From positions 1 to 63,549 of the forward strand of contig NZ_JANIOA010000026.1 of the NCBI RefSeq assembly GCF_025175675.1: a DNA stretch of 63,549 nucleotides, read 5' to 3'. The stretch comes from Sedimenticola hydrogenitrophicus. Lineage in GTDB: Bacteria; Pseudomonadota; Gammaproteobacteria; Chromatiales; Chromatiaceae. Below are positions 18,750-56,374 of this stretch, piece by piece. The notes below the pieces were generated by a model. It made no database searches. It saw only the letters and a list, made by a program, of their open reading frames with translations, and had not been told where the DNA came from. The first letter of the stretch is position 1, and the number at the start of each line of letters is the position of its first letter. The translations under genes and the position numbers were made by a program.

Positions 18750-18786
18750 TGAGTATTTGCCTTTTAATCTAGGAAGTGGCTCTAAA

Positions 18787-23627: not shown

Positions 23628-23989
23628 CGGATGCTCTCTCTATCGCAATGGCGCGGGGCCGATCTGCTTCCGCCCGTTGAATGTTTATCAAGTCGGCGCC
23701 CTCCGGGTGCCCCAGGGCTGCCCTTTACCCATAAGTGGGTCGGACTGCATCCAGGCGTAGGATGGGTGGAGCGCCTCCATGAACTCTCCGCCGGCTTCCG
23801 CTCCGGCGCGCAACCCATCGTGCACCTGCATCCGCATCCGAAGATGGGTTACGGCGCGCCCGACCGCCGCGAATAGCCGTCAATAAGGGTGCCGCGCCTC
23901 CACCCATCCTACACGCGTGTTCATCGGCATTTGTGGGTAAAGGGTAGCCCTATGGAGTGGGCCGTGCCCGCGGATGGTCAGCGCCCTTA
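23628..23989. other. intergenic region with repeat fragments, no gene seen
   Basis: This gap holds short repeat fragments (CATCCTACACG-type and GGATGGGTGGAGC-type arms at about 23758-23915 that can pair with each other) but no convincing coding frame. It ends at the TTA that flanks the family 2 element. Confidence 0.4.
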
Positions 23990-24148
23990 GGGCTCGCGCA
24001 AGAATAATTCCGCAGTACCGAGGGCGTCACTGGGCCATGTCGGCAAGGCACGCTTTGCAGGCAATGGCTGTTCCCTTGCCAAAAAGCGTAACGCCGCCGA
24101 CGTGGTCCAGTGGCGCGCGAATACCGGAACTTATCTTTGCGCGAGCCC
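23990..24148. mobile_element. MITE-like element, family 2, copy 2 (159 bp)
   Basis: Terminal inverted repeats GGGCTCGCGCAA and TTGCGCGAGCCC, flanked on both sides by TTA, which fits a 3-bp TNA target duplication. On the minus strand the flanking trinucleotide is the TAA stop of pgpA. Relative to pgpA the element is in the same orientation as copy 1 is relative to hcmA. The core shares similarity with the family 1 element (GGCAATGG and GCGTAACGCC type segments). Confidence 0.8.
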
Positions 24149-24637
24149 TTAGCCTAGCAGATAAACCGCCAGCTGGATGAGAACGAAACCGTAGATCCCG
24201 GCCAGCACGTCATCCAGCATGATCCCCAGCCCGCCGGAGACCTGCCGGTCCAGCAGGCCGATAGGCCAGGGCTTGAGGATATCGAAAAAACGGAACAGGC
24301 AGAAGCCGGCCAGCAGCCAGTACCAGCCCGGCGGGGCCATCCACAGCGTAATCAGCAAGCCGACCCACTCGTCCCAGACGATACCGCCGTGGTCATGCAC
24401 CCCGAGATCCCGCGAGGTACGACCACACAGCCAGATGCCAAGCAGGAACAGCAGCAACACCAGCAGCAGGTACGGCAGCGGGGCCAACGGCTGCAGCAGC
24501 AGGTAGAGCGGCACCGCCGCCAGGGTGCCGAAGGTGCCGGGTGCCTTGGGCGCCGCGCCGGAGCCGAGGCCGAAGGCCAGCAGATGGACCGGATTGCGCC
24601 AGTCGGGCCGGGGCTCAGGGGTTGCGGAAATGGTCAT
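24149..24637 (-). CDS. pgpA: phosphatidylglycerophosphatase A, 162 aa
   Basis: PgpA family, an inner-membrane enzyme that dephosphorylates phosphatidylglycerol phosphate. Family motifs are the GSGAAPKAPGTFGT segment, HDHGGIVWDEWVG, and FRFFDILKPWPI with the acidic residues of the active site. Four membrane helices are apparent. The start at 24637 (MTISATPEP) has GGAGGG upstream and overlaps thiL by 23 bp, as is common for thiL-pgpA pairs. Its stop abuts a MITE. Confidence 0.92.
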   Translation of the reverse strand: MTISATPEPRPDWRNPVHLLAFGLGSGAAPKAPGTFGTLAAVPLYLLLQPLAPLPYLLLVLLLFLLGIWLCGRTSRDLGVHDHGGIVWDEWVGLLITLWMAPPGWYWLLAGFCLFRFFDILKPWPIGLLDRQVSGGLGIMLDDVLAGIYGFVLIQLAVYLLG

Positions 24638-39921: not shown

Positions 39922-40770
39922 TCAACCCGCCTCGCGCAGGCGTTCCCGGCGGGATTGCTCCTCGACCCGTGCCGCGTTGATTTCATCCAGTACGGCAACC
40001 ACATCGGCGACCTGCTCGGACGCCTCGAAGCGGCCGGTGAGCGGCACCTCCGGGTGTAACCGGCCATTTTCGTACAGTGCCCAGATCTCTTTGGCGTACT
40101 GGCTCTCCAGCAAGTCTGGGGCATACTGGGCATAGTAGCCGGTGATGCTGTTTACATCCCGTTCCAGCATCGCCTGGGCGTTGTTGTTGGCCGCCGCGTT
40201 CACCGCCTGCGGAAGGTCGATAATCACCGGACCGGACGCATCCACCAGGACATTGAATTCGGACAGGTCACCGTGTACCAGTCCGGCACAGAGCATGCGC
40301 ACCACGAAGCGCATGATGATCGCATGGCCCTCCCGTGCCTGCTCCGCGGACATCGACAGATCGTTCAGGCGCGGCGCCACCTGCCCCTTGTGATCGGTTA
40401 TCAGTTCCATCAGCAGGACGCCGTCAAAGCAGCCAAAGGGTTGCGGGACACGTACCCCGGCACGCGCCAGGCAGTAGAGCGCATCCACCTCGGCACTCTG
40501 CCAGATCCGCTCTTGTTCATCGCGGCCGAACCGGGAGCCCTTCTCCATCGCCCGGGCGCGGCGGCTATTGCGCACCTTGCGGCCCTCCTGGTATTGCGCC
40601 GCCTGCTTGAAGCTGCGTTTGTCCGCCTCCTTGTATACCTTGGCACAACGGGTTTCGCCACCGCATCGCACCACATAGACGGCGGCCTCCTTGCCGCTCA
40701 TCAGCGGGCGGATCACCTCATCCACCAGGCCGTCGTCGACCAAGGGCTGGATTCTTTTAGGAATTTTCAT
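39922..40770 (-). CDS. RIO1-like serine kinase, 282 aa
   Basis: RIO-type atypical kinase. The N-lobe has GKEAAVYVVRCGG and CAKVYKEADKRSFKQAAQY. The catalytic loop is LVHGDLSEFNVLV and the metal-binding loop VIIDLPQAV. Bacterial RIO proteins of this length are poorly studied and are proposed to phosphorylate or hydrolyse ATP on an unknown target. The start MKIPKRIQPLVDDG at 40770 is preferred; upstream in-frame sequence is low quality. It is not part of the nif operon by appearance but follows clpX. Confidence 0.87.
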   Translation of the reverse strand: MKIPKRIQPLVDDGLVDEVIRPLMSGKEAAVYVVRCGGETRCAKVYKEADKRSFKQAAQYQEGRKVRNSRRARAMEKGSRFGRDEQERIWQSAEVDALYCLARAGVRVPQPFGCFDGVLLMELITDHKGQVAPRLNDLSMSAEQAREGHAIIMRFVVRMLCAGLVHGDLSEFNVLVDASGPVIIDLPQAVNAAANNNAQAMLERDVNSITGYYAQYAPDLLESQYAKEIWALYENGRLHPEVPLTGRFEASEQVADVVAVLDEINAARVEEQSRRERLREAG

Positions 40771-40905
40771 GGCGCCCTTATACGCCGATTGCGCAGCGGA
40801 TGGAATAGAGCCGGCGGTCTGGACAGAACGGCGGTCGGCGGTACGGGCGGCAAACGGAGCGCGGATCGCCACGCCCCGCCATCCTTGGGAAGAAACCACC
40901 CGGGA

Positions 40906-42225
40906 TCAGCGCCCCGCGGCTTCCCCGACCAGCTCCCGGGGGATATCCGCATCCGCGACAAGGGTGGGCTCCTCGGTTCCCAGCACCACCTGTTCATCCA
41001 CCAGGCACCCGGTGACGCCCTGGATCGACGGAATCTCATACATGATCCTGCGCAACAGCCCCTCCAGGACGGCCCGCAGTCCGCGCGCCCCGGTGCCGCG
41101 TTCGATCGCCTGGCGGGCGATCAGGCGCAACGCTTCCGGGGAAAACTCCAGCGCGACCCCCTCGTACTCGAACAGCCGCTGGTACTGGCGGATCAGGGCG
41201 TTGCGCGGTTCGGTGAGAATCCGCAACAGCGCCGCCTCATCCAGGTCGTGCAGTGCGGTGATGACGGGAAAGCGGCCGATGAACTCGGGGATCAGGCCGA
41301 AATGGCGCAGATCGTCCGGCTGTACCTGCTCGAACAGGCACGCCGGGTCATAATCCGCGCCGGCGGCCGCGGGTTCGGCATGGAAACCGATCCCCCCGCC
41401 ACCGCTGCCCAGGCGTTTCTCCAGCAAGCCCTCCATCCCGGCAAAGGCGCCGCCGGCGATGAACAGGATATGGCGGGTATCCAGCAGCAGATCGCCCCCC
41501 TGCCCCTTCGCACCCTTGGCACTCAGCTTGACCCGGGCGCCTTCCACCAGTTTCAGCAACGCCTGCTGTACCCCCTCGCCGGAGACGTCGCGGGTACCGT
41601 GGGATGACTCGCCGGCGCGCGCCAGCTTGTCGATCTCGTCGATGTAGACGATCCCCCACTCCGCCAGCTCCAGGTTACCCTCGGCGCTGTCCACCAGGCG
41701 CGCCAGGATACTCTCCACGTCATCCCCCACATAGCCCGCCTGGGTCAGGGTGGTGGCATCGGCAATCACGATGGGGACGCCGACGATACGCGCCAGGGTA
41801 CTGGCCAGCAGGGTCTTGCCGGTGCCGGAGGGGCCGAGCAGCAGGATGTTGGATTTTTCGATCTCCACATCCGGATTGCAGACCGGCATCTTCGGGCCCG
41901 CCTGCTCCATGCTCAGCCGTTTGAAATGGTTATAGACCGCGACCGCCAGGGTCTCCTTGGCCAGATCCTGACCGATGATATAGCGATCCAGTTGCGCCTT
42001 GAGTTCGACCGGCTTGAGCAGGTTCTGCAACGGCTTGGCGGCCGCCCGCTTGCGTCCCCAGCTGCCGACCACCTGGGAGGCCAGGCGGACGCACTCCTCG
42101 CAGATGTGCCCCTCTTCACCGGCGATCAGCGGAAGGTCCGGACTCTGTTCCTGACCACAGAATGAACAGTGCGCTTTTAGCTGGCTCACGGGCTTCACCT
42201 CTCCGGGCAGCAGTGACGCTGCCAT
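40906..42225 (-). CDS. clpX: nif-linked ClpX-type AAA+ unfoldase, 439 aa
   Basis: N-terminal zinc-binding domain (HCSFCGQ and CEEC), Walker A GPSGTGKT, Walker B IVYIDEIDKLA, and the IGF loop (GIGFHAE) used to dock ClpP. Length is normal. In Azotobacter a second clpX copy closes the nifV-cysE-nifWZM operon, as here, and is thought to help turn over nitrogenase accessory proteins. A MITE separates it from nifM, which might reduce or alter its expression. A housekeeping clpX is presumably elsewhere. Confidence 0.9.
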   Translation of the reverse strand: MAASLLPGEVKPVSQLKAHCSFCGQEQSPDLPLIAGEEGHICEECVRLASQVVGSWGRKRAAAKPLQNLLKPVELKAQLDRYIIGQDLAKETLAVAVYNHFKRLSMEQAGPKMPVCNPDVEIEKSNILLLGPSGTGKTLLASTLARIVGVPIVIADATTLTQAGYVGDDVESILARLVDSAEGNLELAEWGIVYIDEIDKLARAGESSHGTRDVSGEGVQQALLKLVEGARVKLSAKGAKGQGGDLLLDTRHILFIAGGAFAGMEGLLEKRLGSGGGGIGFHAEPAAAGADYDPACLFEQVQPDDLRHFGLIPEFIGRFPVITALHDLDEAALLRILTEPRNALIRQYQRLFEYEGVALEFSPEALRLIARQAIERGTGARGLRAVLEGLLRRIMYEIPSIQGVTGCLVDEQVVLGTEEPTLVADADIPRELVGEAAGR

Positions 42226-42240
42226 GTTTGAATGCGGGCA

Positions 42241-42448
42241 GGTAACTACTCACCCGGTCAGTAAGCGATTGGCCTGCCTTGTTGGCCGATCTTGATGGCG
42301 CCTCGAATCCGGCCCTTTTTTCAGATTCAAGCCTGCCCTTGTTTGAGCGAAGCGAGTTTGGGCAGGCGCTGAAAATGGGGCCGGATTCGAGGAGACAAGC
42401 CATCATGTGAGGCCGGCAAGGCAGGCCAATCACCCATGCGTAGTTACC
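42241..42448. mobile_element. MITE-like palindromic element, family 3, copy 2 (208 bp)
   Basis: Terminal inverted repeats GGTAACTAC and GTAGTTACC, flanked by direct 5-bp copies of GGGCA (42236-42240 and 42449-42453), which is a clean target duplication. The interior is nearly identical to 13659-13851, with an internal hairpin on AGCCTGCCCTTGTTTGAG. It is inserted between nifM and clpX. It carries no gene. Confidence 0.85.
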
Positions 42449-42467
42449 GGGCATGGTTGAATTTGAC

Positions 42468-43394
42468 TCATGACCGGGCATACCGGTCCCCGGATAGCGG
42501 CCTCGGCGCGGGCGTTTCGCTCAAGGGGGCAGGGTCCCGCTCCGGCAGGGCGGCCAGCCACGCCTTCTGACGGTTGCGCCGCTGGCGCTCCTGGAGCAGC
42601 TGGCGAATCCGCGCCTGCGCCCGGGCCAGCGGCATACGCTTGCCCGGCTTGATCTTTTCACACAGCAGGATATGAAGACCCATCTCCGTCTCGATAATCG
42701 GGCTGATCTCCCGCGCCTGCATACTGAACAGCATGGCGTCCAGTTCGGCATAGAGCTGCCCCGGCCTGACATCACCCAGCGCGCCCCCCTGCATGGCGGT
42801 CGGGCACTCGGAGTAGCGCTTGGCGAAATCGTGGAACCGGTTCACCCGCCCGGACAACTTCTCGACCAGCTGCTCCATCCGGGCGCAGGCCGCGGCGCGG
42901 GTATTTTCCGGGAAGTCGGGATTCACGGTGATCAGGATATGCCGTGCCACCCGCTGTTCCGGAGCCTCGAAGCGTTCCCGATGCATCTCGTAGAACAGGC
43001 CGACATCGATGTCGCTGACCCCGGGGCTGGCGGCGGCGACCCGTTGCAGAGTTGCGTCGAACAGCAGCTCGCGATGCAGGGCGCGACGCAATCCGGCCTC
43101 GTCCAGGCCATTGACCCCCAGGTCCTGGAGATACTCCTCCCGGCTGGCATAGCGCGACAACAACTGCTCCAGCGAGGCGTCCAGCTGCGCCTCGGAAATA
43201 ACCAGTCCCCGGGCCTCGTCCGCCGCCAGCACCCGTGACTCCAGGTCAAAGCTCCTGGCCGCCTGGTCATGCACCTGGCGATACTCCTCCGGCGCCAGTT
43301 GCGCCAGGTTCCTGCCGAAACCGTGCAAGGCGTTGCGCAGCAGATGGTAGCTGAACTCGGAGCCGCTATCGGGTTGCCTGTCGGAACCGCTCAT
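42468..43394 (-). CDS. nifM: nitrogenase maturation protein NifM, 308 aa
   Basis: Parvulin-type peptidyl-prolyl isomerase needed for folding of the Fe protein NifH. The N-terminal helical region (SYHLLRNALHGFGRNLAQL) is typical of NifM. The parvulin domain starts at RHILITVNPDFPEN and continues with GGALGDVRPGQLYAELD and ETEMGLHILLCE. The ATG at 43394 overlaps the nifZ stop (ATGA). Confidence 0.9.
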   Translation of the reverse strand: MSGSDRQPDSGSEFSYHLLRNALHGFGRNLAQLAPEEYRQVHDQAARSFDLESRVLAADEARGLVISEAQLDASLEQLLSRYASREEYLQDLGVNGLDEAGLRRALHRELLFDATLQRVAAASPGVSDIDVGLFYEMHRERFEAPEQRVARHILITVNPDFPENTRAAACARMEQLVEKLSGRVNRFHDFAKRYSECPTAMQGGALGDVRPGQLYAELDAMLFSMQAREISPIIETEMGLHILLCEKIKPGKRMPLARAQARIRQLLQERQRRNRQKAWLAALPERDPAPLSETPAPRPLSGDRYARS

Positions 43395-43849
43395 CAGGCC
43401 TCCTCGGGTTCGCCCGGCGGAAAGTCGAGCGCACACTCCGGAACCTGCAGGGTGCGGCCACTGAAACGGACATGATAGGCCGGGCCGTTCTCCTGCTCGC
43501 GCAGGACCTTTTCCACTTCGCCGCAATCACCGGGGCGGGCAATCACCTCACCCTGAATGGCCAGCGGCATGCGCGGCGTGACCTTGTCCCTGAATTCGAA
43601 ACGGGTCGGCACCCAGGGATCGCTGGCCAGCTGCAACTCCGGCTCCCGGCAACCCACCATGCATTGACTGTCGATGAAATCCACCGAGTAGATGATCTGA
43701 TCCTGCAGGAAGGTACCGACATCACGCACATAACCGACACTGCCACGGCGCACCAACAGGCGGCCGGTCGGCTCGCCGGGATAGGTGCCGTCATTGCGCA
43801 CGTTGCGGATCACCCGCACCGCCTCGCCATATTCAAATCTTGGTCGCAT
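43394..43849 (-). CDS. nifZ: nitrogen fixation protein NifZ, 151 aa
   Basis: NifZ family, which assists maturation of the P-cluster in NifDK. Visible traits are FEYGEAVRVIRNVRNDGTYPG, RRGSVGYVRDVGTFLQDQII and YSVDFIDSQCMVGCREPEL; the last is the conserved C-terminal block. The start overlaps the nifW stop by 17 bp. Confidence 0.92.
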   Translation of the reverse strand: MRPRFEYGEAVRVIRNVRNDGTYPGEPTGRLLVRRGSVGYVRDVGTFLQDQIIYSVDFIDSQCMVGCREPELQLASDPWVPTRFEFRDKVTPRMPLAIQGEVIARPGDCGEVEKVLREQENGPAYHVRFSGRTLQVPECALDFPPGEPEEA

Positions 43850-44180
43850 GCGCGGCTCCCTGTTTAAACAGTTCGCTCAGCGGCACCTCCACGCTGAACG
43901 GTTCTTGCATACGAAAGACCTTGAACACCTTTTCGGTGCGGGCGTCCGAGGCGACAAAATCGTTATAGGCGCTGTCGAGCAGGCCGGCGTAAAGGGCGCG
44001 GCGCGCCACCTCGCTCTCGGGCATCTCATCCAGGTCATCGAGGTAGTCGTGAAAGCGCTGCAGAATGTGCAGCCGGTTGACCTGTACCACCGCCGGGTCG
44101 TAAGCCACACCCAAGTACTCCAGAAACTCCTCCGCACTGCTGAGCTCTTCCAGGTCCAGATCAAATTCGCTGTCACTCAT
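43833..44180 (-). CDS. nifW: nitrogenase-stabilising protein NifW, 115 aa
   Basis: NifW protects nitrogenase and helps MoFe protein maturation. The sequence has LEELSSAEEFLEYLGVAYDP and VQVNRLHILQRFHDYL, the two conserved helices of the family. Length is normal. It lies between the TPR gene and nifZ. Confidence 0.93.
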   Translation of the reverse strand: MSDSEFDLDLEELSSAEEFLEYLGVAYDPAVVQVNRLHILQRFHDYLDDLDEMPESEVARRALYAGLLDSAYNDFVASDARTEKVFKVFRMQEPFSVEVPLSELFKQGAAHATKI

Positions 44181-44212
44181 CTTCTATCTCCCGATTGAAA
44201 TTCAATATGCCG

Positions 44213-44746
44213 TCAGGTCGCACTCAGGTGGGTCCGGGGCGCCCGTCTCCCCAGTGCATCACGCGCGATGCTGAGCAGGCTTTTGGCACCCAGGCGGTCC
44301 CGGCTGTCCAGTTCCGCCACCTTCTCCAGACGCTCGATGGCCGAGTCGTAGCGGCCCAGCCGGAACTCCAGATAACCGGCCCCCTTCAGCGCCAGCATGT
44401 AAAAGCGAATCAGGGCCATGGAGATCATCACCCCGCTGCCGATGCGCAGCTCGGTGATCTCACGCCAGTTGTCCGGCAGTTCGAGCCGTTTCGCGAACAC
44501 CGCCAGCACCCGCTCGGCCACCATCAGGGCCTCTTCCAGACGGTGCTGGTAATAGAAATAACGGTACAGCGCCACCAGCACCATCGGGTGTTCCGGCTCC
44601 AGAAAGTAGGCCCGCATCAGCGACCGCTCGGCGCGGCCCTCGGCATACTGTTCGGCGGCGCAATCCAGACACCGGCTCGCCTCATCCGTAAGCGGCTCGT
44701 CGAAGTAGAGGTCCCCGGCTTCAAAATCCTGCATATCCATAATCAT
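44213..44746 (-). CDS. TPR-like protein embedded in the nif operon, 177 aa
   Basis: An all-helical protein with tetratricopeptide-like repeats ([60 protein letters not shown]). It begins by ATGA overlap with the cysE stop and precedes nifW, so it belongs to the nif operon. The gene is not in the classical Azotobacter set. It may be an adaptor or chaperone for nitrogenase assembly; that is inference. Confidence 0.75.
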
Positions 44747-45525
44747 CTCCTTTTGCCCTCGCCCGCCGTTTCGCAGACCTGGTTCGCATCACACTCGTCA
44801 CACCCCTGTGCCGGCCGGGCATCCGCCAGCAGGGCATCATGCATGCCCACCTGCCGCTCCAGGCGGCCGATGCGCTCCAACAGGCAGTTGACGGCATCGG
44901 CCACCGGATCGGGAATGATATGGTGATCCAGATCGATGCCCCGGCTGGGGGCCACCCGCTTCGGGCCGACCACCTTGCCGGGAATACCGACCACCGTCCG
45001 CCCCTCCGGTACCGAGGCGATCACCACCGAGTTGGCGCCGACGCGCGCCTGGCGGCCGATATGGATGGGCCCGAGAATCTTGGCCCCCGCACCGACCACC
45101 ACCTGGTCGCCCAGGGTGGGGTGACGCTTGCCCCGGCTCCAGGAGACACCCCCCAGGGTGACCCCGTGATAGAGGGTCACATCGTCCCCCACCTCGGCGG
45201 TCTCGCCGATCACCACGCCGGCCCCGTGATCGATAAAGAACCGCCGGCCGATGGTGGCGCCCGGATGGATATCGACACCGGTCCAGATGCGCCCCACGTA
45301 GCTGATCAGCCGCGGCAGGTAGCGCCAGCCGCGCCGCCACAGGCGATGGGCGATGCGGTAGAGCATGATGGCGTGCACCCCCGGATAGGTGGTGATGATC
45401 TCCAGGCGGGTGCGGGCCGCCGGGTCGCGTTCAAAGACGCAGGCGATATCCTCGCCGATGCTGCGCCAGACCGAGTCTCCGCGCGTCCACGGCATCGCCG
45501 GGTTGATCAGTTCGCTGCTGTTCAT
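44743..45525 (-). CDS. cysE: nif-linked serine O-acetyltransferase, 260 aa
   Basis: Left-handed beta-helix acetyltransferase. Hexapeptide repeats ([20 protein letters not shown], then [20 protein letters not shown]) and the catalytic Asp/His are visible. It makes O-acetylserine to boost cysteine supply for Fe-S cluster assembly under diazotrophy. The nif-associated copy CysE1 in Azotobacter holds the same place. It overlaps nifV and the TPR gene by 4 bp each. Confidence 0.93.
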
Positions 45526-46676
45526 TGTGGCCGCCGCTCCTTGTGGGCCTGATTGACGTCGAAATAGAACTGGCGCAGTTCCTGATCCGCCGGTGGCCGC
45601 TTGTGCAGGACGGTGTAGCGCCTGACCAGCAGCAGCAGGGACTCCGCCTGCTGGCGGGTCAGGTGGATGCTCATATCGGCGTAGGCCTGGATCACCGCGT
45701 GGCTGCCGGAGTGCTTGCCCAGCACAATCTGGTGCTCGCGCCCCAGTTCGGCCGGATCGATCCCCTGGTAGTTGCGCCGGTCCTTGATCAGGCCATCCAC
45801 ATGGATACCCGCCTCGTGGGTGAAGACACCGGCCCCTACCAGGCTCTTGTGCCAGCCGACACTGCGCCCGGAGGCCAGCTCCACCAGTTGCGAGACGGCG
45901 GAAAAGTGCGCCATGTCGATCTCCTGGCCCTGCGCGTAAAAGCGTCGCAACCCCATCACCACCTCTTCCAGGGGGGCATTGCCGGCCCGCTCGCCCAGGC
46001 CGTGCACCGTGGTGTTGACATGCGTCGCCCCGCCGCGGATCGCCGCCAGGGTATTGGCCGTGGCCAGACCGATATCATCATGGGCATGCATCTCGATCTC
46101 CAGGTCGCAGATGCGCCGCAGATCGGCCATGGTTTCGCACACCTGGAACGGCTCCATGATGCCCAGGGTATCGGCAAAGCGGAACCGGGCCGCGCCGGCC
46201 TGCTCGGCCACCTCCACCACCTGCCAGAGGAACTCGGGATCGGCACGCGAGGCGTCCTCACCACCGACGCATACTTCCAGGCCCAGCTCCTGCGCCTCGC
46301 CGGTGCAACGGACGATCTGCTGCAGCAGCCATGCTCGACTGCGCCCAAGCTTGTGGTAGATCTGTTGATCGGAGACCGGGATGGAGAGATCGACCCGCCG
46401 CACCCCCAGGTCACGGCACTCGGCGATGTCCTGGCTGTGCATCCGGCACCACACCATCAGCTGCGCATGCAGCACCACCTCGGCGACCGCGCGGATGGAA
46501 TCGCGCTCCTCATGCCCCATGGCCGGAATGCCCACCTCAAGTTCGGGCACGCCCAGTTCATCCAATGCACAGGCGATGGCCAGTTTCTCCTCCAGGGTGA
46601 AGGCAACGCCGGCAGACTGCTCGCCATCCCGCAGGGTGGTGTCGTTGATCGTGATCTTCGCTGTCTGTGTATGCAT
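45522..46676 (-). CDS. nifV: homocitrate synthase NifV, 384 aa
   Basis: Alpha-isopropylmalate/homocitrate synthase family. It has the metal and substrate motif [17 protein letters not shown], the [17 protein letters not shown] segment with the HxH metal ligands, and [20 protein letters not shown]. It supplies homocitrate for FeMo-co. It heads the nifV-cysE-TPR-nifWZM transcript, with its own sigma-54 promoter. Confidence 0.95.
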
Positions 46677-46701
46677 GGATCTCTCCTCTACCAGGAGCTA
46701 G

Positions 46702-46717
46702 TGCAAACAGTGTGCCA
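46702..46717 (-). promoter_or_regulatory. sigma-54 promoter of nifV
   Basis: On the minus strand the sequence is TGGCAC-ACTGT-TTGCA, a perfect -24/-12 match (GG to GC spacing 10). It lies 26 bp upstream of the nifV ATG. It is the promoter by which NifA and RpoN would start the nifV operon independently of nifUS. Confidence 0.85.
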
Positions 46718-46789
46718 GACGAAATACCCCCACTTTTTCAACAAGATAGTTTTGTCTGAAACAGCAATTTATGTAGGGTTTGGGGCGAT

Positions 46790-46805
46790 TGTCGCAAACC
46801 GGACA
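46790..46805. promoter_or_regulatory. NifA upstream activator site for nifV
   Basis: TGT-N10-ACA (TGTCGCAAACCGGACA) 73 bp upstream of the nifV sigma-54 promoter, the normal distance range for NifA binding. The duplicate in copy A (53405 region) reads CGT in place of TGT, so only this copy appears intact. Confidence 0.75.
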
Positions 46806-46954
46806 AGGGCGCTTTCCACCAGGGGGGTTGCCCCTACGACCATCCCGGCCTTCCGTTCATTGACCCGTGCGCCGGATTCTGTGCGACCCACCGTAGGGGC
46901 AGGCCCCTGTGCCTGCCCGCTCCAAAGCCGCTCCCGGCCATGCCTGGCGCACAC

Positions 46955-46981
46955 AAAAAAATGCCGCAACGGGGTTGCGGC
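46955..46981 (-). terminator. rho-independent terminator (duplicate, copy A')
   Basis: Minus-strand stem GCCGCAA-CCCCG-TTGCGGC followed by ATTTTTTT. It is identical to the nifS terminator at 53688-53714. In its present place it ends any read-through from the inserted block before the nifV promoter. Confidence 0.85.
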
Positions 46982-47148
46982 AAAAGATGGGGTTCGGGTC
47001 AACCGCCGTGTTACCCGGTCACATTCGGGTGCACGATCTTTGTTATCAGGCGTATGTTGGTGCAAATTCCTGCCCGGGTTCGTCGGCCGGCGCATCGCCA
47101 TTCCAGTAGGGGGAGAGCTTGCGCAGCCGCTCGACAATCAGTGGCACC

Positions 47149-47210
47149 GCCGCCGGCAGTGACGACCATCACGGCTTCGCCACCACGTTCCGCTATGAGT
47201 GGTGACTGTA
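47149..47210 (+). repeat. duplicated 3' end of the autotransporter gene (copy B')
   Basis: This matches 52497-52558, the last codons and stop of the autotransporter (HHGFATTFRYEW), with one or two substitutions. It is joined directly to the nifS fragment at a short GCCGCC homology. It is a scar of the rearrangement that built the insert. Confidence 0.85.
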
Positions 47211-47406
47211 CCAAATCGGTAACACCCATAAATGTTTAAAATCCAGACCGCGCAGAACGCAGCCAACACCAGCCAGCTCTCGCACCACTTGTTGTAGACC
47301 TTTGTAATCTCGGAGAACGGCTTGAGATTGATCAGAAACACGCCGATCTGCGTCGCGCTGGACAGCCATGATGGTTACTGGCATAGTCCTTAACGAAGTC
47401 CGCAGG
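47211..47406. other. short region without recognised gene
   Basis: The minus strand reads an open stretch of about 40 residues (MFLINLKPFSEITKVYNKW at 47285-47341, then a hydrophobic run) that looks protein-like but is joined to duplicated DNA and has no known family. It may be part of a broken mobile gene. The response regulator promoter should also lie here. Confidence 0.3.
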
Positions 47407-48033
47407 ATGTATCCAATTAGCCCCGTGCAGCCATTCCATATTCTCCTTATCGATGACCATGCCATGTTTCGTACAGGATTACGGATGATCCTGGAAATGG
47501 AAATGACGCAGATGGCGGTTTCCGAGGCCGAGTCGTTGGCGGAAACATTTGACATGTCTGCGGCGCCCGACTTGATTCTGCTCGATATCCAGCTGCCGGG
47601 TCTGAACGGTCTCGAGGCGATGGCTTCACTCAAACAGCGCTGGCCCGGGTCTGCGATTATCGTCGTATCGGCTCTGCATGCTACCAGTAATGTCGAATTG
47701 GCTTACGAGCAAGGTGCTGCCGCTTTTATTTCCAAAACAGAACCTTCAGCCAACATCGTCAGGATTATTGAGCAGATACGGGGTGGGCAAGCTTCCGATA
47801 TATCTGAAAAACAAAAAACCACAACCCGGAAAGAAAGGCCGCGCCTGACGCCTCATCAATGTGATGTGCTTGAACTATTGTGCCGGGGGCATCCCAATAA
47901 AGTGATTGCCCGCAAATTGGATCTTTCGGAAAACACGGTTCGTTGGCATGTGCAGGCTTTATTGGAAATACTGGATGCCAGTTGCCGCTCTGAGGCGATT
48001 TTTTTGGCCTGTAGCAAGGGCCTGATTCTATAA
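47407..48033 (+). CDS. LuxR/NarL-family response regulator, 208 aa
   Basis: Receiver domain (HILLIDDHAMFRTGLRMILE, phospho-acceptor Asp in DLILLDIQLPG, SALHATS and conserved Lys in FISKTEP) followed by a LuxR helix-turn-helix (LTPHQCDVLELLCRGHPNKVIARKL is longer; the core is LSENTVRWHVQALLE). The start is uncertain: an ATG at 47368 is in frame, but 47407 gives the normal N-terminus. Its stop shares one base with the kinase start, so the two form a two-component operon. Confidence 0.88.
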   Translation: MYPISPVQPFHILLIDDHAMFRTGLRMILEMEMTQMAVSEAESLAETFDMSAAPDLILLDIQLPGLNGLEAMASLKQRWPGSAIIVVSALHATSNVELAYEQGAAAFISKTEPSANIVRIIEQIRGGQASDISEKQKTTTRKERPRLTPHQCDVLELLCRGHPNKVIARKLDLSENTVRWHVQALLEILDASCRSEAIFLACSKGLIL

Positions 48034-49784
48034 TGCAACTTTCTGAGTCACGCATACTTTCGGAACAACTCAAACTCTCTTTCAGGCATATCATCAATTC
48101 GGCAGCCCCTCCTCCCTTGGTGGCCGTACTGATGGTGTGGGCACTTTCCGATCAGAGTAATCTACAGGCACTCATAATCTGGTGCGCAGCCACGCTCTTA
48201 TCCGGTTTTGCCTATATCTATGAAGCCCGAAAACAGTTAGCGACAAATATTCCCCCGGAAAATGCCCGGCATGTGTTGAAGCGACTGATCATTGTCAATA
48301 TCGTGTCCGGCGCCTGCTGGGGAGGACTGCCTTTAGCGGCATTTGCCCCTGCAGATGCGGCCAGCAGTATTCTGGTTGTTACTGTGATTACCGGGGTGGC
48401 AGCTAACGCGATGGCGACTCTGGCGCCTGTGTTTTCTGCCTACGCGGCATTTGTTCTTTTTGAAATGGCGGGCCTGATCTGGGTGTTACTCATGGTCGGC
48501 GAAACGGCCTACACCGCTCTCGCTATAGTGGGCGCATTGTATCTGGTCAGTTTACTTGGCATGGCAAGTAATGGCGCAAAAACAACTCGATCAACAATCA
48601 TTTTACGTTTTGAAAATAGTGATCTGGTTGAGCGGCTGAAACAGGAAAAGGCATCGACACTGGCCGCCTATCGTGAGGCCGAGCAAGCAAATCAAGACAA
48701 GTCCCGCTTTCTGGCAGCGGCCAGCCATGACCTGCGCCAACCGGTTCATGCCCAAGGGCTGTTTATGGATGTACTCGTTCGAAGCGGCTTGGCTGGCACC
48801 CAGCAAGATCTGCTGAACAGGATTCGGGGTTCCTGGCGGGCGTCCACCGAGATGCTCGACGCTTTGCTGGACATTTCGCGTATCGAAGCCGGTGTGGTCG
48901 AACCGCAACAACGTGTTTTTCATCTGCACCCCCTGCTGACTAAACTGGAAATCGAATTCGGGCCACAGGCCGATCGTAAAGGGTTGGTATATCGCTGCCG
49001 TGAAACGATGCTGGCAGTGGAATCCGACCCGGTGCTGGTTGAACTGATGTTGCGCAACCTGATAGCGAACGCGATCCGTTATACCGAACAAGGCGGCATC
49101 TTGATCGGCTGCCGCAAACGAAACGACAAGGTGCTACTCGAAGTTTGGGATACCGGTATCGGCATGGCGCCCGAGCAACAACGCGATATCTTTCAGGAGT
49201 TCTATCAGGTCGGCAACAGCGAACGGGACCGGCGCAAGGGGCTGGGGTTGGCCATTACCGATGGCCTGGCGCAAGTGCTTGAACACCCGTTATCGCTGGC
49301 GTCCAGACTGGGGCTTGGCAGTGTTTTCCGGCTGGCCTTGCCGCTGACGGACAAACCGGTTGTCATTGAAAGTGTTGACCAACAGCCCATTCAATCAAGG
49401 CGGCTGGGTTTGAGTGTGCTGGTCATTGACGATGATGAAGCCGTACTGGCTGGCATGCAGCAATTACTCAGCGCGTGGGACTGTGACAGCAAAGCCGCCG
49501 ACTCACTTGCGCACGCCTTGCATCTGACAGAAACCTGGCAGCCGGATCTTGTCATCAGCGACTACCGCCTGCGTGAGCAGAAAACAGGCGCAGACGTAAT
49601 TAAGCAGTTGCGCGACCGGCTGGGGCGAAACCTGCCGGCTATCCTCATCACCGGCGACACCGCTCCCGCGCGAATACGCGAGGCTGAGGCCAGCGGCATA
49701 CCCCTGCTACACAAACCGGTGGCCGCCAACCAGCTTTATCAGCGAATTATCGCTTTGACGCCTTCCACTAAACTAATTGGTTAG
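48033..49784 (+). CDS. hybrid sensor histidine kinase with C-terminal receiver, 583 aa
   Basis: Residues about 25-190 form six hydrophobic helices, a membrane sensor module. The phospho-accepting box AASHDLRQPVHAQ has His at about 232. The ATPase part has LRNLIANAIRYTEQGGI, DTGIGMAPEQQ and RRKGLGLAI. The receiver SVLVIDDDEAVLAGMQ with Asp in LVISDYRLRE and Lys in LLHKPVA completes it. This is the same domain order as in several NarL-linked hybrid kinases. Its signal is unknown. Codon use is less GC-rich than in nif neighbours. Confidence 0.88.
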   Translation: MQLSESRILSEQLKLSFRHIINSAAPPPLVAVLMVWALSDQSNLQALIIWCAATLLSGFAYIYEARKQLATNIPPENARHVLKRLIIVNIVSGACWGGLPLAAFAPADAASSILVVTVITGVAANAMATLAPVFSAYAAFVLFEMAGLIWVLLMVGETAYTALAIVGALYLVSLLGMASNGAKTTRSTIILRFENSDLVERLKQEKASTLAAYREAEQANQDKSRFLAAASHDLRQPVHAQGLFMDVLVRSGLAGTQQDLLNRIRGSWRASTEMLDALLDISRIEAGVVEPQQRVFHLHPLLTKLEIEFGPQADRKGLVYRCRETMLAVESDPVLVELMLRNLIANAIRYTEQGGILIGCRKRNDKVLLEVWDTGIGMAPEQQRDIFQEFYQVGNSERDRRKGLGLAITDGLAQVLEHPLSLASRLGLGSVFRLALPLTDKPVVIESVDQQPIQSRRLGLSVLVIDDDEAVLAGMQQLLSAWDCDSKAADSLAHALHLTETWQPDLVISDYRLREQKTGADVIKQLRDRLGRNLPAILITGDTAPARIREAEASGIPLLHKPVAANQLYQRIIALTPSTKLIG

Positions 49785-49797
49785 AGCATCAACCCCT

Positions 49798-49872
49798 AGG
49801 TGTCGGAGTCAAACCAGCCACCCGCCGTGCGATCAGCTCACCCAACCGAGCCTGGTTTGACTCCGACACCTT
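49798..49872. repeat. GTGTCGGAGTC palindrome, copy p2
   Basis: Arms AGGTGTCGGAGTCAAACCAG and its inverse at 49853-49872. An almost identical palindrome in inverted order lies at 56537-56610. It sits between the kinase stop and the autotransporter and could fold into a long hairpin. Confidence 0.75.
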
Positions 49873-49985
49873 ACCGAGGTTCTATGCAACAAAAATCCGC
49901 CACCCCGTCCAAATGGACGGCATGAATAAAAAAGCCGGAGTGCTACCGTAGAGCGCTTTGTTTAGCAGATTTGCGGTGGCAAAGC

Positions 49986-52553
49986 ATGAATCGAATCTAC
50001 AGGGTTGTCTGGAGTGTCAGTCGTCAGACATGGATGGTTGTGGGTGAATTGACCAAGGGGCTTGGCAAGCGCAAAAACACCGTCACCTCTTCAGCTTCAA
50101 GCCATTTGCAAAAATCTGCATTACTCCTCGCTGTATTGCTATGCGGCGCAACCCCGGTCTGGGCCGACGTGGACATCGACGGCGGTACCACCGAGACGGT
50201 GATCGGCACCGGTGGCGGCACGCAGACGAGTCCGTGGAATATTGGTGGTGCCTCTCCCTACTTTCTCTATGTCGGCAAAACTGGCACAGGAACATTGACC
50301 ATTTCCAATGGCGGCACCGTCAACAGCGCGCACACGTCGGTCGGCCATGCAACAGGATCGAGCGGCGACGTGACCGTCACCGGTAACGACTCCAATCTGA
50401 CCTCCACGACCTACGGCTTTTGGGTCGGCAATTATGGCACCGGCACACTCACGATTGAGGGCGGCGGCGTTGTCGCGGGCGATTACATCTATATCGGACC
50501 GCAAACGGGCGCAAACGGAACCGTCACCGTCACCGGCGCGGGGTCCACCGTAACGCTTACCGGTGGGGCGCCCCTCCTTATCGGCTCTAACGGAAACGGC
50601 GAATTGACCATCGCAGATGGCGCCACTGTCACTACCCCTAACGTCACTGACATCGCCAGAACTGGTGCCGGTTCCACCGGCACACTGAACGTCGGCGCGG
50701 CATCGGGGGATGCGGCGGTCGCGGCGGGCACGCTCAATAGCCCGAGCGTAGTGTTCGGCGCCGGCACGGGCAAGATCGTCTTCAACCACACCAATAGCGG
50801 CTACACGTTCTCATCCGCCATTTCCGGCAACGGCACGATCGATCATCTCGCAGGCGAGACGACCCAATCGGGCAACTCATCCAGTTTCACGGGCACGACC
50901 ACCGTTTCCGGCGGCACCCTGCTGGTGAACGGCGCCATCGCCAACTCGACCATCACCATGAACACCGGCGGCACGCTCGGCGGTAGCGGCACCCTGGGCG
51001 ACGTGACCGTCAACACCGGCGGCACGCTGGCGCCGGGCAACTCCCCCGGCATCCTCGCCGTAAACAGCCTGACGCTCAACGCCGGTTCGGTCACGCAGAT
51101 GGAGATCGACGGGCCGACCCCGGGCACCGGGCACGACCAGATCAACGTCACCAACACCGCGACGCTTGACGGCACGCTGGACCTGAACTTCGGCTTCGTC
51201 CCGGTAGACGGCGACCGCTTCAACCTGATCAACGCCGGCGACTTCGTGCTCAACGGCGACGCCACGACCGGCTTCGCCACCATCACCGATAACCTGGGCG
51301 CGGCCCTGCTCGCTACTCCTGTTATAGACCCGACGACGTTTGACATCCTGATCGAGCTCGCCCAGCAGAGCTTTGTCACCTCCGCAGGGGGGGCGCTCAC
51401 ACCCAATCAGGGGCAGGTAGCGGCCAGCCTCGATACCTTTGCCACCTCCGGCCAGGCCGCCGACCTGATTGGCGCCTTGAATCTGTTGTCCGCCGCGGCC
51501 CTGCCCGGCGCCTTCGACAGCCTCTCCGGCGTGCAACACAGCCACGCGCAGACCCTGGCTATCCGGGCCAGCCAGCAGTTCCAGAGGCTGTTGTCCGGGC
51601 GCCTGGGCGGGAACCCGTTGACCCTGGCCGATCGCGGCAACCTCATATTCGCTGCTAATGATGGCGGCATGGTCAGCGATGCCGGCACGAGCGGCCTCAA
51701 TGCGGGCGACGCGCTGGCCCCTGGGCGCGACTGGTGGCTGCGGGGCTTTGGTGGCTTCGGTGATATCGACGACACTGCCAACGCCAGCGGCGCCGATTAC
51801 CACGACAGCGGCGTGGCGGTCGGGGCCGACCTGGAACTGCGGGACGACCTGACCGTCGGCGCCGCCTTCGGCTACACCCGCACCGATGCCGACACCGCCG
51901 GGGGCAAACTCGACGTGGACAGCTATCAGGGGGCGCTCTATGGCGGTTGGGCAAACGCCGGCAATTACCTCAAAGGCTCGGCCGGCGTCGGCTATCACGA
52001 TACGGACGCGAACCGGCGCGTGGCCTTCGGCGGTTTCAATAACACCGCCAAGGCCGATTACGCCGGCTGGACCGCCACCGCGACAGCCGAGGGCGGCAAG
52101 GCGTTCGACCTCGCCGGCCGCGCCACGCTGACACCCTTCCTGGGGCTGGACTACACTCATCTGCGGCGCGAGGGCTTCACCGAGCAGGGCGCGGGCGGGG
52201 CCAACCTCACGCTCGATACCGAGCACCAGGACTCGCTGCGCTCAGTGGTGGGCGTGCGATTGCACCAGACCTTCAAAACCGTGCGCGGGACAAAAATCAC
52301 GTCGGCCGTCGAGGCCGCCTGGGTGCACGAATACCTGGACGATAATGCCGCCATCGATGCCGGCTTCGCCGCCGCTCCGGCGTCGGCCTTTCGCATCGAC
52401 GGGCCGGAGCTCGACCGCAACCGCGCCCGTGTAGGCGCCGGACTGACGGTGCAACTTGCGGACCGCGCCCGTCTGCATATCGCCTACACCGGCGAGGCCG
52501 CCGGGAGTGACGACCATCACGGCTTCGCCACCACGTTCCGCTATGAGTGGTGA
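49986..52553 (+). CDS. ESPR-type autotransporter adhesin, 855 aa
   Basis: The long N-terminus MNRIYRVVWSVSRQTW is an extended signal peptide region (ESPR), followed by a Sec signal ending VWADVD. The passenger (about 60-560) consists of beta-helix repeats of the type GTGTLTISNGGTV and GGTLGGSGTLGDVTVNTGG. The last 270 residues form an autotransporter beta-barrel that ends in FRYEW. It would be displayed on the cell surface, perhaps for adhesion or biofilm formation. The neighbouring kinase and regulator may control it. Its 3' end is duplicated at 47149. Confidence 0.88.
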   Translation: MNRIYRVVWSVSRQTWMVVGELTKGLGKRKNTVTSSASSHLQKSALLLAVLLCGATPVWADVDIDGGTTETVIGTGGGTQTSPWNIGGASPYFLYVGKTGTGTLTISNGGTVNSAHTSVGHATGSSGDVTVTGNDSNLTSTTYGFWVGNYGTGTLTIEGGGVVAGDYIYIGPQTGANGTVTVTGAGSTVTLTGGAPLLIGSNGNGELTIADGATVTTPNVTDIARTGAGSTGTLNVGAASGDAAVAAGTLNSPSVVFGAGTGKIVFNHTNSGYTFSSAISGNGTIDHLAGETTQSGNSSSFTGTTTVSGGTLLVNGAIANSTITMNTGGTLGGSGTLGDVTVNTGGTLAPGNSPGILAVNSLTLNAGSVTQMEIDGPTPGTGHDQINVTNTATLDGTLDLNFGFVPVDGDRFNLINAGDFVLNGDATTGFATITDNLGAALLATPVIDPTTFDILIELAQQSFVTSAGGALTPNQGQVAASLDTFATSGQAADLIGALNLLSAAALPGAFDSLSGVQHSHAQTLAIRASQQFQRLLSGRLGGNPLTLADRGNLIFAANDGGMVSDAGTSGLNAGDALAPGRDWWLRGFGGFGDIDDTANASGADYHDSGVAVGADLELRDDLTVGAAFGYTRTDADTAGGKLDVDSYQGALYGGWANAGNYLKGSAGVGYHDTDANRRVAFGGFNNTAKADYAGWTATATAEGGKAFDLAGRATLTPFLGLDYTHLRREGFTEQGAGGANLTLDTEHQDSLRSVVGVRLHQTFKTVRGTKITSAVEAAWVHEYLDDNAAIDAGFAAAPASAFRIDGPELDRNRARVGAGLTVQLADRARLHIAYTGEAAGSDDHHGFATTFRYEW

Positions 52554-52558
52554 CTGTA
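52497..52558 (+). repeat. 3' end of autotransporter, source of duplicate B'
   Basis: This end matches 47149-47210. It lies in the coding sequence of the autotransporter and includes the stop codon. The duplicate joined to nifS shows that the autotransporter was present before or during the rearrangement. Confidence 0.8.
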
Positions 52559-52681
52559 TAGGAGGAAAAGGGGGCGTGGGGAATTAAAAGCATTCCCTCC
52601 AATAATCCTCTAGCCGCCTCCTGAATTCGGTGGTACTCGTTGGTTTGAGACCGCCGACGACCACCTGACCAGGAAACGACA

Positions 52682-52744
52682 ATGACACTGTTTTGCGGAA
52701 TAGACCTTCATGCCAACAACGATGACCTGCTACTCAAGCGGCTA
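52682..52744 (+). pseudogene. truncated IS110-family transposase start
   Basis: After an upstream purine-rich stretch an ATG opens with MTLFCGIDLHANN, the start of the DEDD transposases of IS110-type elements, and continues with a short LLLKR-type match that lacks the intervening residues. The rest of the gene is absent, replaced by the 3' end of the antitoxin gene on the other strand. It is a remnant that marks past transposition. Confidence 0.55.
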
Positions 52745-53012
52745 CTGACAAATGCACACCCAACGCGTGCATCAGCCGGTGGATTGTGTCCCACTTAGGT
52801 TGCACCTGGCCATTGATCACTTTGTACAGGCTTTCGCGGTTGAGCCCAGCCGCTTGGGCAACCTGCGCGACTCCCTTGTGTTTGATGGCATGACCCAACG
52901 CCACAACAAACACGGCAGGATCATCATCTTCGTAGGCGTCGGTCAGGTACTGAGACAGCTCGTCCTCGGCCAGCAGGTGATCAAAAGGATTGTATTCTGT
53001 CAGTTTGGACAT
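52734..53012 (-). CDS. HigA-like antitoxin, 92 aa
   Basis: Short protein with a C-terminal XRE-like HTH (VAQVAQAAGLNRESLYKVIN) and the N-terminal EYNPFDHLLAEDELSQYL typical of addiction-module antidote proteins. It follows the toxin gene by 3 bp, so it is expressed with it and probably neutralises it and represses the operon. Confidence 0.85.
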   Translation of the reverse strand: MSKLTEYNPFDHLLAEDELSQYLTDAYEDDDPAVFVVALGHAIKHKGVAQVAQAAGLNRESLYKVINGQVQPKWDTIHRLMHALGVHLSVAA

Positions 53013-53015
53013 GGG

Positions 53016-53321
53016 TCAAGCCTCCAATTCGTTCAATATCCGTTGCGCACGGGCAATGTCGCGTGACTGACTGGATTTGTTACCGCCGCACAACAAGATA
53101 ATCAGTTCGCCATCACGGATCGTAAAGTACAGCCGGTAGCCGGGGCCTGCGAAAATTCTCATTTCGCTTACACCCTGTCCCACAGGCTTAACGTCTCCAA
53201 GATTGCCAGCGGCGGCCCGGTCCAGTCTCTGAGCGATAGCCCTCGCGGCTTGGCGATCGCGAATGCGAGTCAACCAGTGATTGAAGTCATCGGTGGAAAC
53301 GATGTGATAGCGCATGTGCAC
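53016..53321 (-). CDS. RelE/HigB-like toxin (Gp49 family), 101 aa
   Basis: Compact RelE-fold toxin. Visible pieces are FNHWLTRIRDRQAARAIAQR, LGDVKPVGQGVSEMRIFAGPG (the characteristic central block) and YRLYFTIRDGELIILLCGG. Such toxins cleave mRNA on the ribosome. The toxin-first order is typical for HigBA and Gp49/HTH pairs. It may stabilise the inserted block. Confidence 0.85.
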   Translation of the reverse strand: MHMRYHIVSTDDFNHWLTRIRDRQAARAIAQRLDRAAAGNLGDVKPVGQGVSEMRIFAGPGYRLYFTIRDGELIILLCGGNKSSQSRDIARAQRILNELEA

Positions 53322-53436
53322 ATTGTAGCCCGCGAGCTACAAATGGGCAAGATAACTCAATAAACTGAGTTCGGAGTCAGAGTAACGATGAGTTCAAGGG
53401 CGATCGTCGCAAACCGGACAAGGGCGCATTCCACCA

Positions 53437-53507
53437 GGGGTCGGAGTCAAATGGGCTCGATATCATACGGCCGACCAGCCTCATACGCCCCATTTGACTC
53501 CGACCCC
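53437..53507. repeat. GGGGTCGGAGTC palindrome, copy p3
   Basis: Arms GGGGTCGGAGTCAAATGGG and its inverse at the right. It is inside the extra sequence of copy A and is flanked by CCACCAGG at the left and CCTGGTGG at the right, extending the dyad. Confidence 0.75.
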
Positions 53508-53687
53508 GGCCTGGTGGCCCTGACCCATCGGCCACCGGCCGACCGGGCAACCACGGAGGGTTGCCCCTACGACCATCCCGGCCTTCCGTTCATTGACCCG
53601 TGCGCCGGATTCTGTGCGACCCGCCGTAGGGGCAGGCCCCTGTGCCTGCCCGCTCCAAAGCCGCTCCCGGCCATGCCTGGCGCACAC

Positions 53688-53714
53688 AAAAAAATGCCGC
53701 AACGGGGTTGCGGC
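53688..53714 (-). terminator. rho-independent terminator downstream of nifS
   Basis: Perfect 7-bp stem GCCGCAA/TTGCGGC with a 5-base loop, followed on the minus strand by ATTTTTTT. It lies 64 bp after the nifS stop and closes the iscA-nifU-nifS transcript. This explains why nifV needs its own promoter. Confidence 0.9.
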
Positions 53715-53778
53715 AAAAGATGGGGTTCGGGTCAACCGCCGTGTTACCCGGTCACATTCGGGTGCACGATCTTTGTTA

Positions 53779-54990
53779 TCAGGCGTATGTTGGTGCAAAT
53801 TCCTGCCCGGGTTCGTCGGCCGGCGCATCGCCATTCCAGTAGGGGGAGAGCTTGCGCAGCCGCTGGACAATCAGTGGCATCGCCGCAATCACCCGCTCGA
53901 CCTCCTCCATGGTGTTATAGCGGGAGAAGGAGAAGCGCACCGAGCCGTGGGCCGCGGTAAACGGGATATCCATGGCGCGCATCACATGCGACGGCTCCAG
54001 CGAGCCGGAGGTGCAGGCGGAACCGCTGGAAGCGGCGATGCCCATCTTGTTGAGCAGCAGCAGGATGGCCTCGCCCTCGATAAACTCGAAGGCGATATTG
54101 CAGGTATTCGGCAAGCGGTTTTCCGGATCGCCGGTGACGAAGCAGTGGGAGACCTGTTCGATGATCCCCTGCTCCAGGCGGTCGCGCATCGAGCGCACGA
54201 CACGCTCCTCGTAGGCCAGCGCCTCGCCGGCCATCTCGCAGGCTTTGCCCAGCGCGACGATGGAGGCGGCGTTTTCGGTGCCGGCACGCCGCCCCCGCTC
54301 CTGGTGGCCGCCGCGCAGCAGCGGCCGGAAACGCACACCACGGCGCAGGTAGAGCACCCCGATCCCCTTGGGGGCATGCAGCTTGTGGCCCGACAGCGAC
54401 AGCATGTCGATACAGCTCTCCTGCAGGTTGATGGGCAGCTTGCCCACCGCCTGCACCGCGTCGGTATGAAACATCACCCCGGCGGCGCGGGCCATCTCGG
54501 CCATCTCTTCCACCGGGAACAGGGTCCCGCTCTCATTGTTGGCCCACATAATGGAGACCACGGCCACCTGGTCCGACAGCAGCCGGGCGTACTCCTGCAG
54601 ATCCAGCCGCCCGCGCTTGTCCACCTTCAGGTAGTGCACGGTATAACCGTCCTTCTCCAGGTACTGGCAGAGCGTGAGTATCGCCGGGTGCTCCACCACG
54701 CTGGTGATGATCTCGCGGCGTTCCGGCTGCGCCTTGAGCGCGGAGAGGATCGCGGTGGAGTCGGATTCGGTGCCGCAGGAGGTGAAGATGATCTCCGAGT
54801 CATGCTCCGCCCCGAGCAGCGCCTGCACCTGTTTGCGCGCCACCTTCAACGCCCGCCCCACCTGGTTGCCGAACTGGTGCAACGAGGAGGGATTGCCGAA
54901 CTGCTCGGTGAAATAAGGCAGCATCGCCTCCACCACCTCGGGGGCCACCATGGTGGTGGCGTTGTTGTCCAGATAGATACCCTTGTCCAT
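53779..54990 (-). CDS. nifS: cysteine desulfurase NifS, 403 aa
   Basis: Class V PLP aminotransferase that provides sulfur for nitrogenase Fe-S clusters. The N-terminal YLDNNATTMVAPEVVEAM, the PLP-lysine region LSGHKLHAPKGIG, and the nucleophile loop SSGSACTSGS with the catalytic Cys are intact. The C-terminus is present in full, so the rearrangement has not destroyed the gene. It starts 3 bp after nifU ends. Confidence 0.95.
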   Translation of the reverse strand: MDKGIYLDNNATTMVAPEVVEAMLPYFTEQFGNPSSLHQFGNQVGRALKVARKQVQALLGAEHDSEIIFTSCGTESDSTAILSALKAQPERREIITSVVEHPAILTLCQYLEKDGYTVHYLKVDKRGRLDLQEYARLLSDQVAVVSIMWANNESGTLFPVEEMAEMARAAGVMFHTDAVQAVGKLPINLQESCIDMLSLSGHKLHAPKGIGVLYLRRGVRFRPLLRGGHQERGRRAGTENAASIVALGKACEMAGEALAYEERVVRSMRDRLEQGIIEQVSHCFVTGDPENRLPNTCNIAFEFIEGEAILLLLNKMGIAASSGSACTSGSLEPSHVMRAMDIPFTAAHGSVRFSFSRYNTMEEVERVIAAMPLIVQRLRKLSPYWNGDAPADEPGQEFAPTYA

Positions 54991-56274: not shown

Positions 56275-56290
56275 TGCAAGGGCTGTGCCA
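56275..56290 (-). promoter_or_regulatory. sigma-54 promoter of iscA-nifUS
   Basis: Minus strand TGGCAC-AGCCC-TTGCA is a perfect -24/-12 element 48 bp upstream of the iscA ATG. It would be used by RpoN together with NifA bound at 56359-56374. Confidence 0.88.
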
Positions 56291-56358: not shown

Positions 56359-56374
56359 TGTCGCGATTACGACA
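56359..56374. promoter_or_regulatory. NifA upstream activator site for iscA-nifUS
   Basis: TGT-N10-ACA (TGTCGCGATTACGACA), a dyad about 69 bp upstream of the sigma-54 promoter. Confidence 0.82.

Follow-up and report, generated by a model that had tools for sequence, protein, structure and literature searches.

How did a block of genes foreign to nif come to lie between nifV and nifS in Sedimenticola hydrogenitrophicus, and what became of the two nif genes on either side of it? The window that we analyzed is the whole 63,549-nucleotide contig NZ_JANIOA010000026.1 (contig 52 of a 4.71-Mb genome assembled in 132 contigs), and the block lies in it between two direct repeats, A' and A, which both derive from the nifS end and the adjoining spacer. 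We found that this is a real insertion into the ancestral nifV-nifS junction, a lineage-specific insertion-duplication of a known kind. The original prediction gave the block as 6.7 kb; that figure holds for the repeat-to-repeat period, and the unique block itself spans 47154-53397, or 6.2 kb. The features that define the site are as follows.

45522-46676, minus strand: nifV (homocitrate synthase), left flank, above the cut-off of the NCBIfam equivalog TIGR02660
46703-46717, minus strand: sigma-54 -24/-12 promoter of nifV, TGGCACACTGTTTGC, an exact match to the consensus
46783-47153: A', the left direct repeat, holding the nifV upstream region, the nifS terminator and the last 35 nifS codons with the stop
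46790-46805: NifA upstream activator site TGTCGCAAACCGGACA (TGT-N10-ACA), intact in A'
47149-47210, plus strand: left-border copy (62 bp) of the autotransporter 3' end, 61/62 identical to 52497-52558, with 53 exact bases
53398-53886 (53398-53440 and 53555-53886): A, the right direct repeat, with 118 bp more than A', running on into intact nifS
53779-54990, minus strand: intact nifS (403 aa), right flank, above the cut-off of equivalog TIGR03402 and 99% identical to the NifS of relative G006

The repeats at the nifS end, which had been noticed from the letters alone, proved real. They align as two segments, one of 300 nt (99% identity, spacing 6733) and one of 43 nt (95%, spacing 6615), far above chance, and differ by only 5 substitutions in 368 compared positions (46790, 46813, 46890, 47132, and 47147). 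The longest exact run is 241 bp (46891-47131 and 53624-53864). They are not collinear over their whole length: 118 bp present in A is absent from A', and this extra DNA contains a hairpin with 19-bp perfect arms (53437-53507). The terminator stem-loop is kept in both copies, each at -23.5 kcal/mol (z -2.6 and -2.5). When the whole genome was searched with A' (40 of 139 candidates scored), the other matches were short pieces of dispersed repeats. The nifS-nifV spacer contains pieces of a dispersed GTAGGGGCAGG-type repeat (46822-46919 in the window; locus L029, 4440-4812), which forms several tandem units in G006 and one in the window.

NifS was sought in 37 relatives, and the five with a close NifS (77-99% identity) were compared over the nif region. 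The nearest is G006, with 99% identical NifS; over the shared nif region it is 92.0-98.8% identical to the window at aligned positions in 37 of 40 steps of 500 bp, the remaining three being lower (88.8, 91.8, and 81.4%). The uninterrupted junction that the original prediction proposed to look for was found in three relatives. In G006 and in Sedimenticola thiotaurini (G003), which belongs to the same genus, only a spacer separates nifV and nifS; G014 shares this gene order, its matched ends lying about 0.3 kb apart. G010 and G022 are uninformative on the junction, since the matches of the former are limited to nifS and the region beyond and the contig of the latter ends just past nifS. Far from being shared by all relatives, the block itself occurs in 0 of the 37 (with up to seven candidates per genome scored). 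Matches to its DNA occur in seven of them, mostly short repeat, domain or insertion sequence (IS) pieces, and S. thiotaurini alone has a long one, 66% identical over 0.95 kb in the kinase gene.

Comparison with these empty sites places the joints. The outer ones, nifV-A' and A-nifS, are seamless relative to both G006 and S. thiotaurini, so that A' holds the ancestral nifV side and A the intact nifS, as had been proposed; both inner joints are non-homologous, and relative to G006 the recipient DNA was duplicated, not deleted. Target-derived direct repeats flanking the insert on both sides and seamless outer joints are two marks of Campbell-type integration, and both are present. We rejected the idea that A' is a copy re-inserted later to restore the NifA site, because comparison with G006 shows no seam at 46783. 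At 46790, 47132, and 47147, A' has the state found in G006 and S. thiotaurini and A is derived (3 of the 3 polarizable differences; 46813 and 46890 could not be polarized). In the intact NifS, the two coding changes result in M371 and Q376; the G006 residues are V and E. Since A' and A differ at 2 of 199 bases and A' and G006 at 6 of 198, the duplication seems to be more recent than the divergence from G006, as far as such small numbers of bases can tell.

The block between the repeats carries the following features.

47211-47371, minus strand: segment whose open frame looks, by eye, like that of a membrane protein, origin not found
47410-48033, plus strand: LuxR/NarL-type response regulator (Pfam Response_reg and GerE); the open reading frame (ORF) can start at 47368
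48033-49784, plus strand: hybrid histidine kinase (Pfam HisKA, HATPase_c, and Response_reg)
49789-49872: 84-bp hairpin repeat, similar to repetitive extragenic palindromes (REP-like), with at least 22 other sites in its own genome (40 of 99 candidates scored)
49905-49920: palindrome CCGTCCAAATGGACGG between kinase and autotransporter genes, a proposed response-regulator operator
49986-52553, plus strand: type V secretion system (T5SS) autotransporter with PEPC-type passenger repeats, above the TIGR01414 and TIGR04393 cut-offs; the listed ORF starts at 49971
52497-52558, plus strand: internal partner of the 62-bp repeat in the autotransporter 3' end, forming a nested direct repeat
52602-52720, plus strand: remnant of an IS110-type transposase gene, comprising the upstream region and first codons (ATG at 52682)
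52734-53012, minus strand: antitoxin of the HI1420 family, above the TIGR02684 cut-off
53016-53321, minus strand: RelE/ParE-type toxin of the HI1419 family, above the TIGR02683 cut-off

How the block entered is a separate matter. To integration of a circularized fragment by a single crossover, which would leave both neighboring nif units complete, we give an even chance. A foreign fragment with the regulator, kinase and autotransporter genes, the IS110 remnant and the toxin-antitoxin pair would already have been joined to a piece of the nifV-nifS spacer and the nifS 3' end. It could have been circularized by a short end-join at GCCGC, which is common to nifS and the autotransporter end and is the overlap of the 62-bp copy with A'. 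One homologous crossover within the 0.4-0.5-kb A segment would then integrate the circle, with A' ending up next to nifV and A next to nifS. This reading fits because the outer joints are seamless, the inner joints are non-homologous, and the target is duplicated. In a study of conjugation in E. coli, 56 of 60 clones were the single-crossover duplication product (14 were sequenced, with duplications of 109-950 bp), four appeared to be of the insertion-deletion type, and the authors favored linearized DNA that had re-circularized (PMC3240628). The original prediction offered Campbell-type integration or a rearrangement with a large target duplication; the anatomy is as a single crossover predicts. 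The repeats, the borders, the empty site of relatives and the palindrome common to two genomes are observed; the circle with its nif segment and the crossover itself are inferred, and so are the regulation and continued nif expression considered below.

Several points weigh against integration of a circle. It needs a donor in which the cargo already adjoined the nifS spacer, and to account for the 62-bp autotransporter repeat something more has to be assumed, such as a donor with two autotransporter copies. Apart from the IS110 start fragment, no recombinase or integrase was found among the block ORFs tested with Pfam and NCBIfam profiles (the autotransporter was scanned from 50031), and no empty-site strain of the same species, circle or donor locus was seen. 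The three-of-three polarity count is weak, as it leaves out two of the five differences. Base composition is divided: in 500-base windows, the regulator-kinase stretch (47500-49749) has 48-59% G+C and the left nif flank (40000-46999) 59-70%, whereas the autotransporter (50250-52499), at 62-69%, resembles the flanks, so that composition alone cannot mark the whole block as foreign.

The closest competitor, in which a linear fragment was inserted directly by illegitimate joining and a long stretch of the target was duplicated, is possible yet clearly less probable. The fragment ends would have joined different sister chromosomes at 47153 and 46783, doubling the 0.4-0.5 kb between the joints, and the incoming DNA would need no nif segment. 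The final map would be the same, with both inner joints non-homologous. Such interchromatid integration has been demonstrated in Streptococcus pneumoniae transformation, where, however, the ends were homologous and the duplications about 100-900 kb in size (PMC3784515); a literature search on large target duplications yielded one unrelated paper only. Direct insertion requires two illegitimate joints, and in the E. coli experiments the single-crossover product was far commoner than the illegitimate outcome (56 vs 4 of 60; PMC3240628). One genome allows no firm choice between circle and direct insertion.

That the arrangement is an assembly product is unlikely. The weak spot is the 241-bp exact repeat, rather than 47149-47210, to which the original prediction had pointed. 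An exact repeat of this length exceeds common short-read k-mers, the genome is in 132 pieces, and a path swap at the repeat yields exactly two molecules, one with the nifV-nifS junction uninterrupted and one a circle of about 6.7 kb, so that misthreading could hide either this pair or a mixed population. However, the contig runs through both copies, which differ on both sides of the exact run, other contigs showed only short pieces of the repeat among the candidates scored, and a free circle should need replication genes, none of which was found among the block ORFs tested. A stepwise build-up is still less probable: the A duplication and the toxin-antitoxin pair would have come first, and the three-gene unit later as a 5.35-kb circle by a crossover at the autotransporter 3' end. 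The nested repeat, which at a spacing of 5348 bp brackets the regulator, kinase and autotransporter genes, speaks for it, and unlike the single-step model it accounts for the 62-bp copy. It assumes an autotransporter end already present at the site, and 53 exact bases offer little length for a homologous crossover. We rejected transposition with a normal target duplication, as the repeats are 0.4-0.5 kb long and none of the block ORFs tested matched a recombinase.

Both nif units should remain functional, judging from the sequence, because nifV keeps its promoter and NifA site through A' and nifS keeps its end and terminator through A. The counts of the two motifs are within chance in the window (9 sigma-54 motifs with at most one mismatch found vs 6.8 expected; 11 NifA-site motifs vs 7.4). 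The pair is supported instead because the same sigma-54 motif and the same 16-base NifA site are readable in the G006 and S. thiotaurini junctions. The copy of the NifA site in A is mutated in its first base (T to C at 53405). A similar pair precedes the genes upstream of nifU (56276-56290 and 56359-56374); the block therefore lies between two nif transcription units. Elsewhere in the window, one copy of a 192-nt direct repeat (13659-13850 and 42242-42433, 96% identical, 28.6 kb apart) immediately precedes a gene near the nif cluster that looks clpX-like by eye. An inverted repeat (18587-18753 and 23986-24152), with arms of 99 and 49 nt separated by about 5.2-5.5 kb, is a possible flip point.

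That the cargo is foreign to nif was borne out. Nor is it a chance collection of genes: those for the regulator, the kinase and the autotransporter make up a unit that has a shared palindrome. No gap separates the regulator gene from the kinase gene, and downstream in the same direction lies the autotransporter gene, which encodes a complete C-terminal beta-barrel (Pfam Autotransporter PF03797, 6.6e-73, over profile positions 1-255 of 255). The kinase was matched at 1e-60 in 26 of 210 genomes of the order, the own genome included; the S. thiotaurini kinase is 59% identical to it and those of the others at most 45%. The autotransporter was matched at 1e-40 in 3 of the 210, again counting the own genome. 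S. thiotaurini is not among these because its autotransporter, which directly follows its kinase, is too diverged. An autotransporter relative was present in 3 of 47 kinase loci (L058-L103 and L105), namely L058 (own genome) and L059 and L105 (both S. thiotaurini), in a set where neighbors could be missed because L058-L067 have short flanks and some others lie on short contigs. S. thiotaurini thus carries a diverged three-gene core at another locus, about 35 kb from nifS, between a TetR gene and a region shared with other genomes; G002 and G005 carry different genes there. As no direct or inverted repeats of at least 25 nt surround that unit, we rejected it as a repeat-flanked insertion. No second copy of the block was seen elsewhere in the own genome among the candidates scored.

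The palindrome CCGTCCAAATGGACGG occurs exactly at the same place in S. thiotaurini (L105, 8471-8486), with GTGCTA and TAGA downstream at equal spacing in both genomes (by eye). It was found in 2 of the 210 order genomes, solely at the two kinase-autotransporter gaps, and its backward control pattern in none. In a class sample of 369 genomes, which overlaps the order set by the own genome and at least G014, G015, and G090, the palindrome was found in one (the own genome) and the control in four. Within the window, one occurrence with at most one mismatch vs 0.58 expected is not above chance; the weight of the palindrome comes from its position shared by two genomes. Most likely, the response regulator controls the autotransporter through this site.

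The toxin and antitoxin genes are adjacent and both above their curated cut-offs, as a predicted HI1419/HI1420-type pair would be. The toxin was matched at 1e-25 in 26 of the 210 order genomes, the own one included, and in 0 of the 8 other members of the genus. The IS110 remnant is 71% identical to 79212-79335 on contig C24 of G006, a stretch that includes the beginning of an intact IS110-family transposase gene. The segment at 47211-47371 had no Pfam match and matched only itself among the order genomes. Twelve of the other sites of the hairpin repeat are 89-96% identical to 49789-49872, and the best G006 copy is 86% identical (7 of 116 candidates scored); because this repeat belongs to a family of the own genome, the block has probably resided for some time either in this lineage or in a close donor. 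The inventory of the original prediction included the border repeats and missed the nested 62-bp repeat and the IS110-type gene start. New here are the left-border 62-bp copy, the IS110 remnant, the hairpin repeat shared with many sites of the own genome, and the palindrome.

A plasmid blastn search with 47149-53400 matched 59 records; the 15 listed all match the kinase part, and six of the other 44 have 80-95% identity. One phage record matched, over 91 bases. As no record of either kind covers 80% of the query, plasmid or phage origin of the block was rejected. The autotransporter found 45 plasmid records by tblastn, all below 60% identity, and no relative in viral contigs. In a search of genome contigs for a donor, the kinase matched 36 loci with best-segment identities of at most 46%, and phmmer found no autotransporter relative in them, several loci being short.

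It is conceivable, though quite improbable, that we are dealing with a surface-protein cassette that is reversible and guarded by its toxin. A crossover between A and A' would free a 6.7-kb circle and restore the nifV-nifS junction, the toxin-antitoxin pair would select against loss, and the dedicated regulator and operator would allow the three-gene core to function at any site of insertion, as at the different S. thiotaurini locus. More broadly, the site is a natural example of foreign DNA entering a dense functional cluster without breaking it, because the duplication leaves nifS its end and terminator and nifV its NifA-sigma-54 control; what makes the nif setting notable is mainly that it seems to have lost nothing essential. 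The compact three-gene unit with its nearly unique operator-like site could offer a direct handle on surface-protein control. Literature searches found nothing plainly like this insertion in a nif cluster, or like the regulator-kinase-autotransporter unit, which is no proof of absence.

Among known systems, homology-facilitated illegitimate recombination resembles this case in having one homologous and one non-homologous side with short shared bases, but predicts deletion of recipient DNA, according to the E. coli study (PMC3240628), whereas here recipient DNA was duplicated. Genomic islets with toxin-antitoxin genes are alike in being small blocks, absent from relatives and partly different in base composition, with accessory genes, a toxin-antitoxin pair and an IS remnant; the difference is that no integrase was found among the block ORFs tested. 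In the BvgAS type, a two-component system controls an adjacent adhesin. The block regulator and kinase likewise adjoin a surface protein with a putative palindromic operator upstream of it, although the hybrid kinase resembles the NahK/ErcS group, below the cut-off of that model (341.5 vs 400 bits). In Campbell-type integration, as here, foreign DNA lies between direct repeats of the target, one of them truncated by an end-join. The S. hydrogenitrophicus case differs in being a natural event with a presumed circle, and in the 5 substitutions and 118-bp indel between A and A'; its duplication of about 0.37-0.49 kb lies inside the 109-950 bp given for E. coli (PMC3240628).

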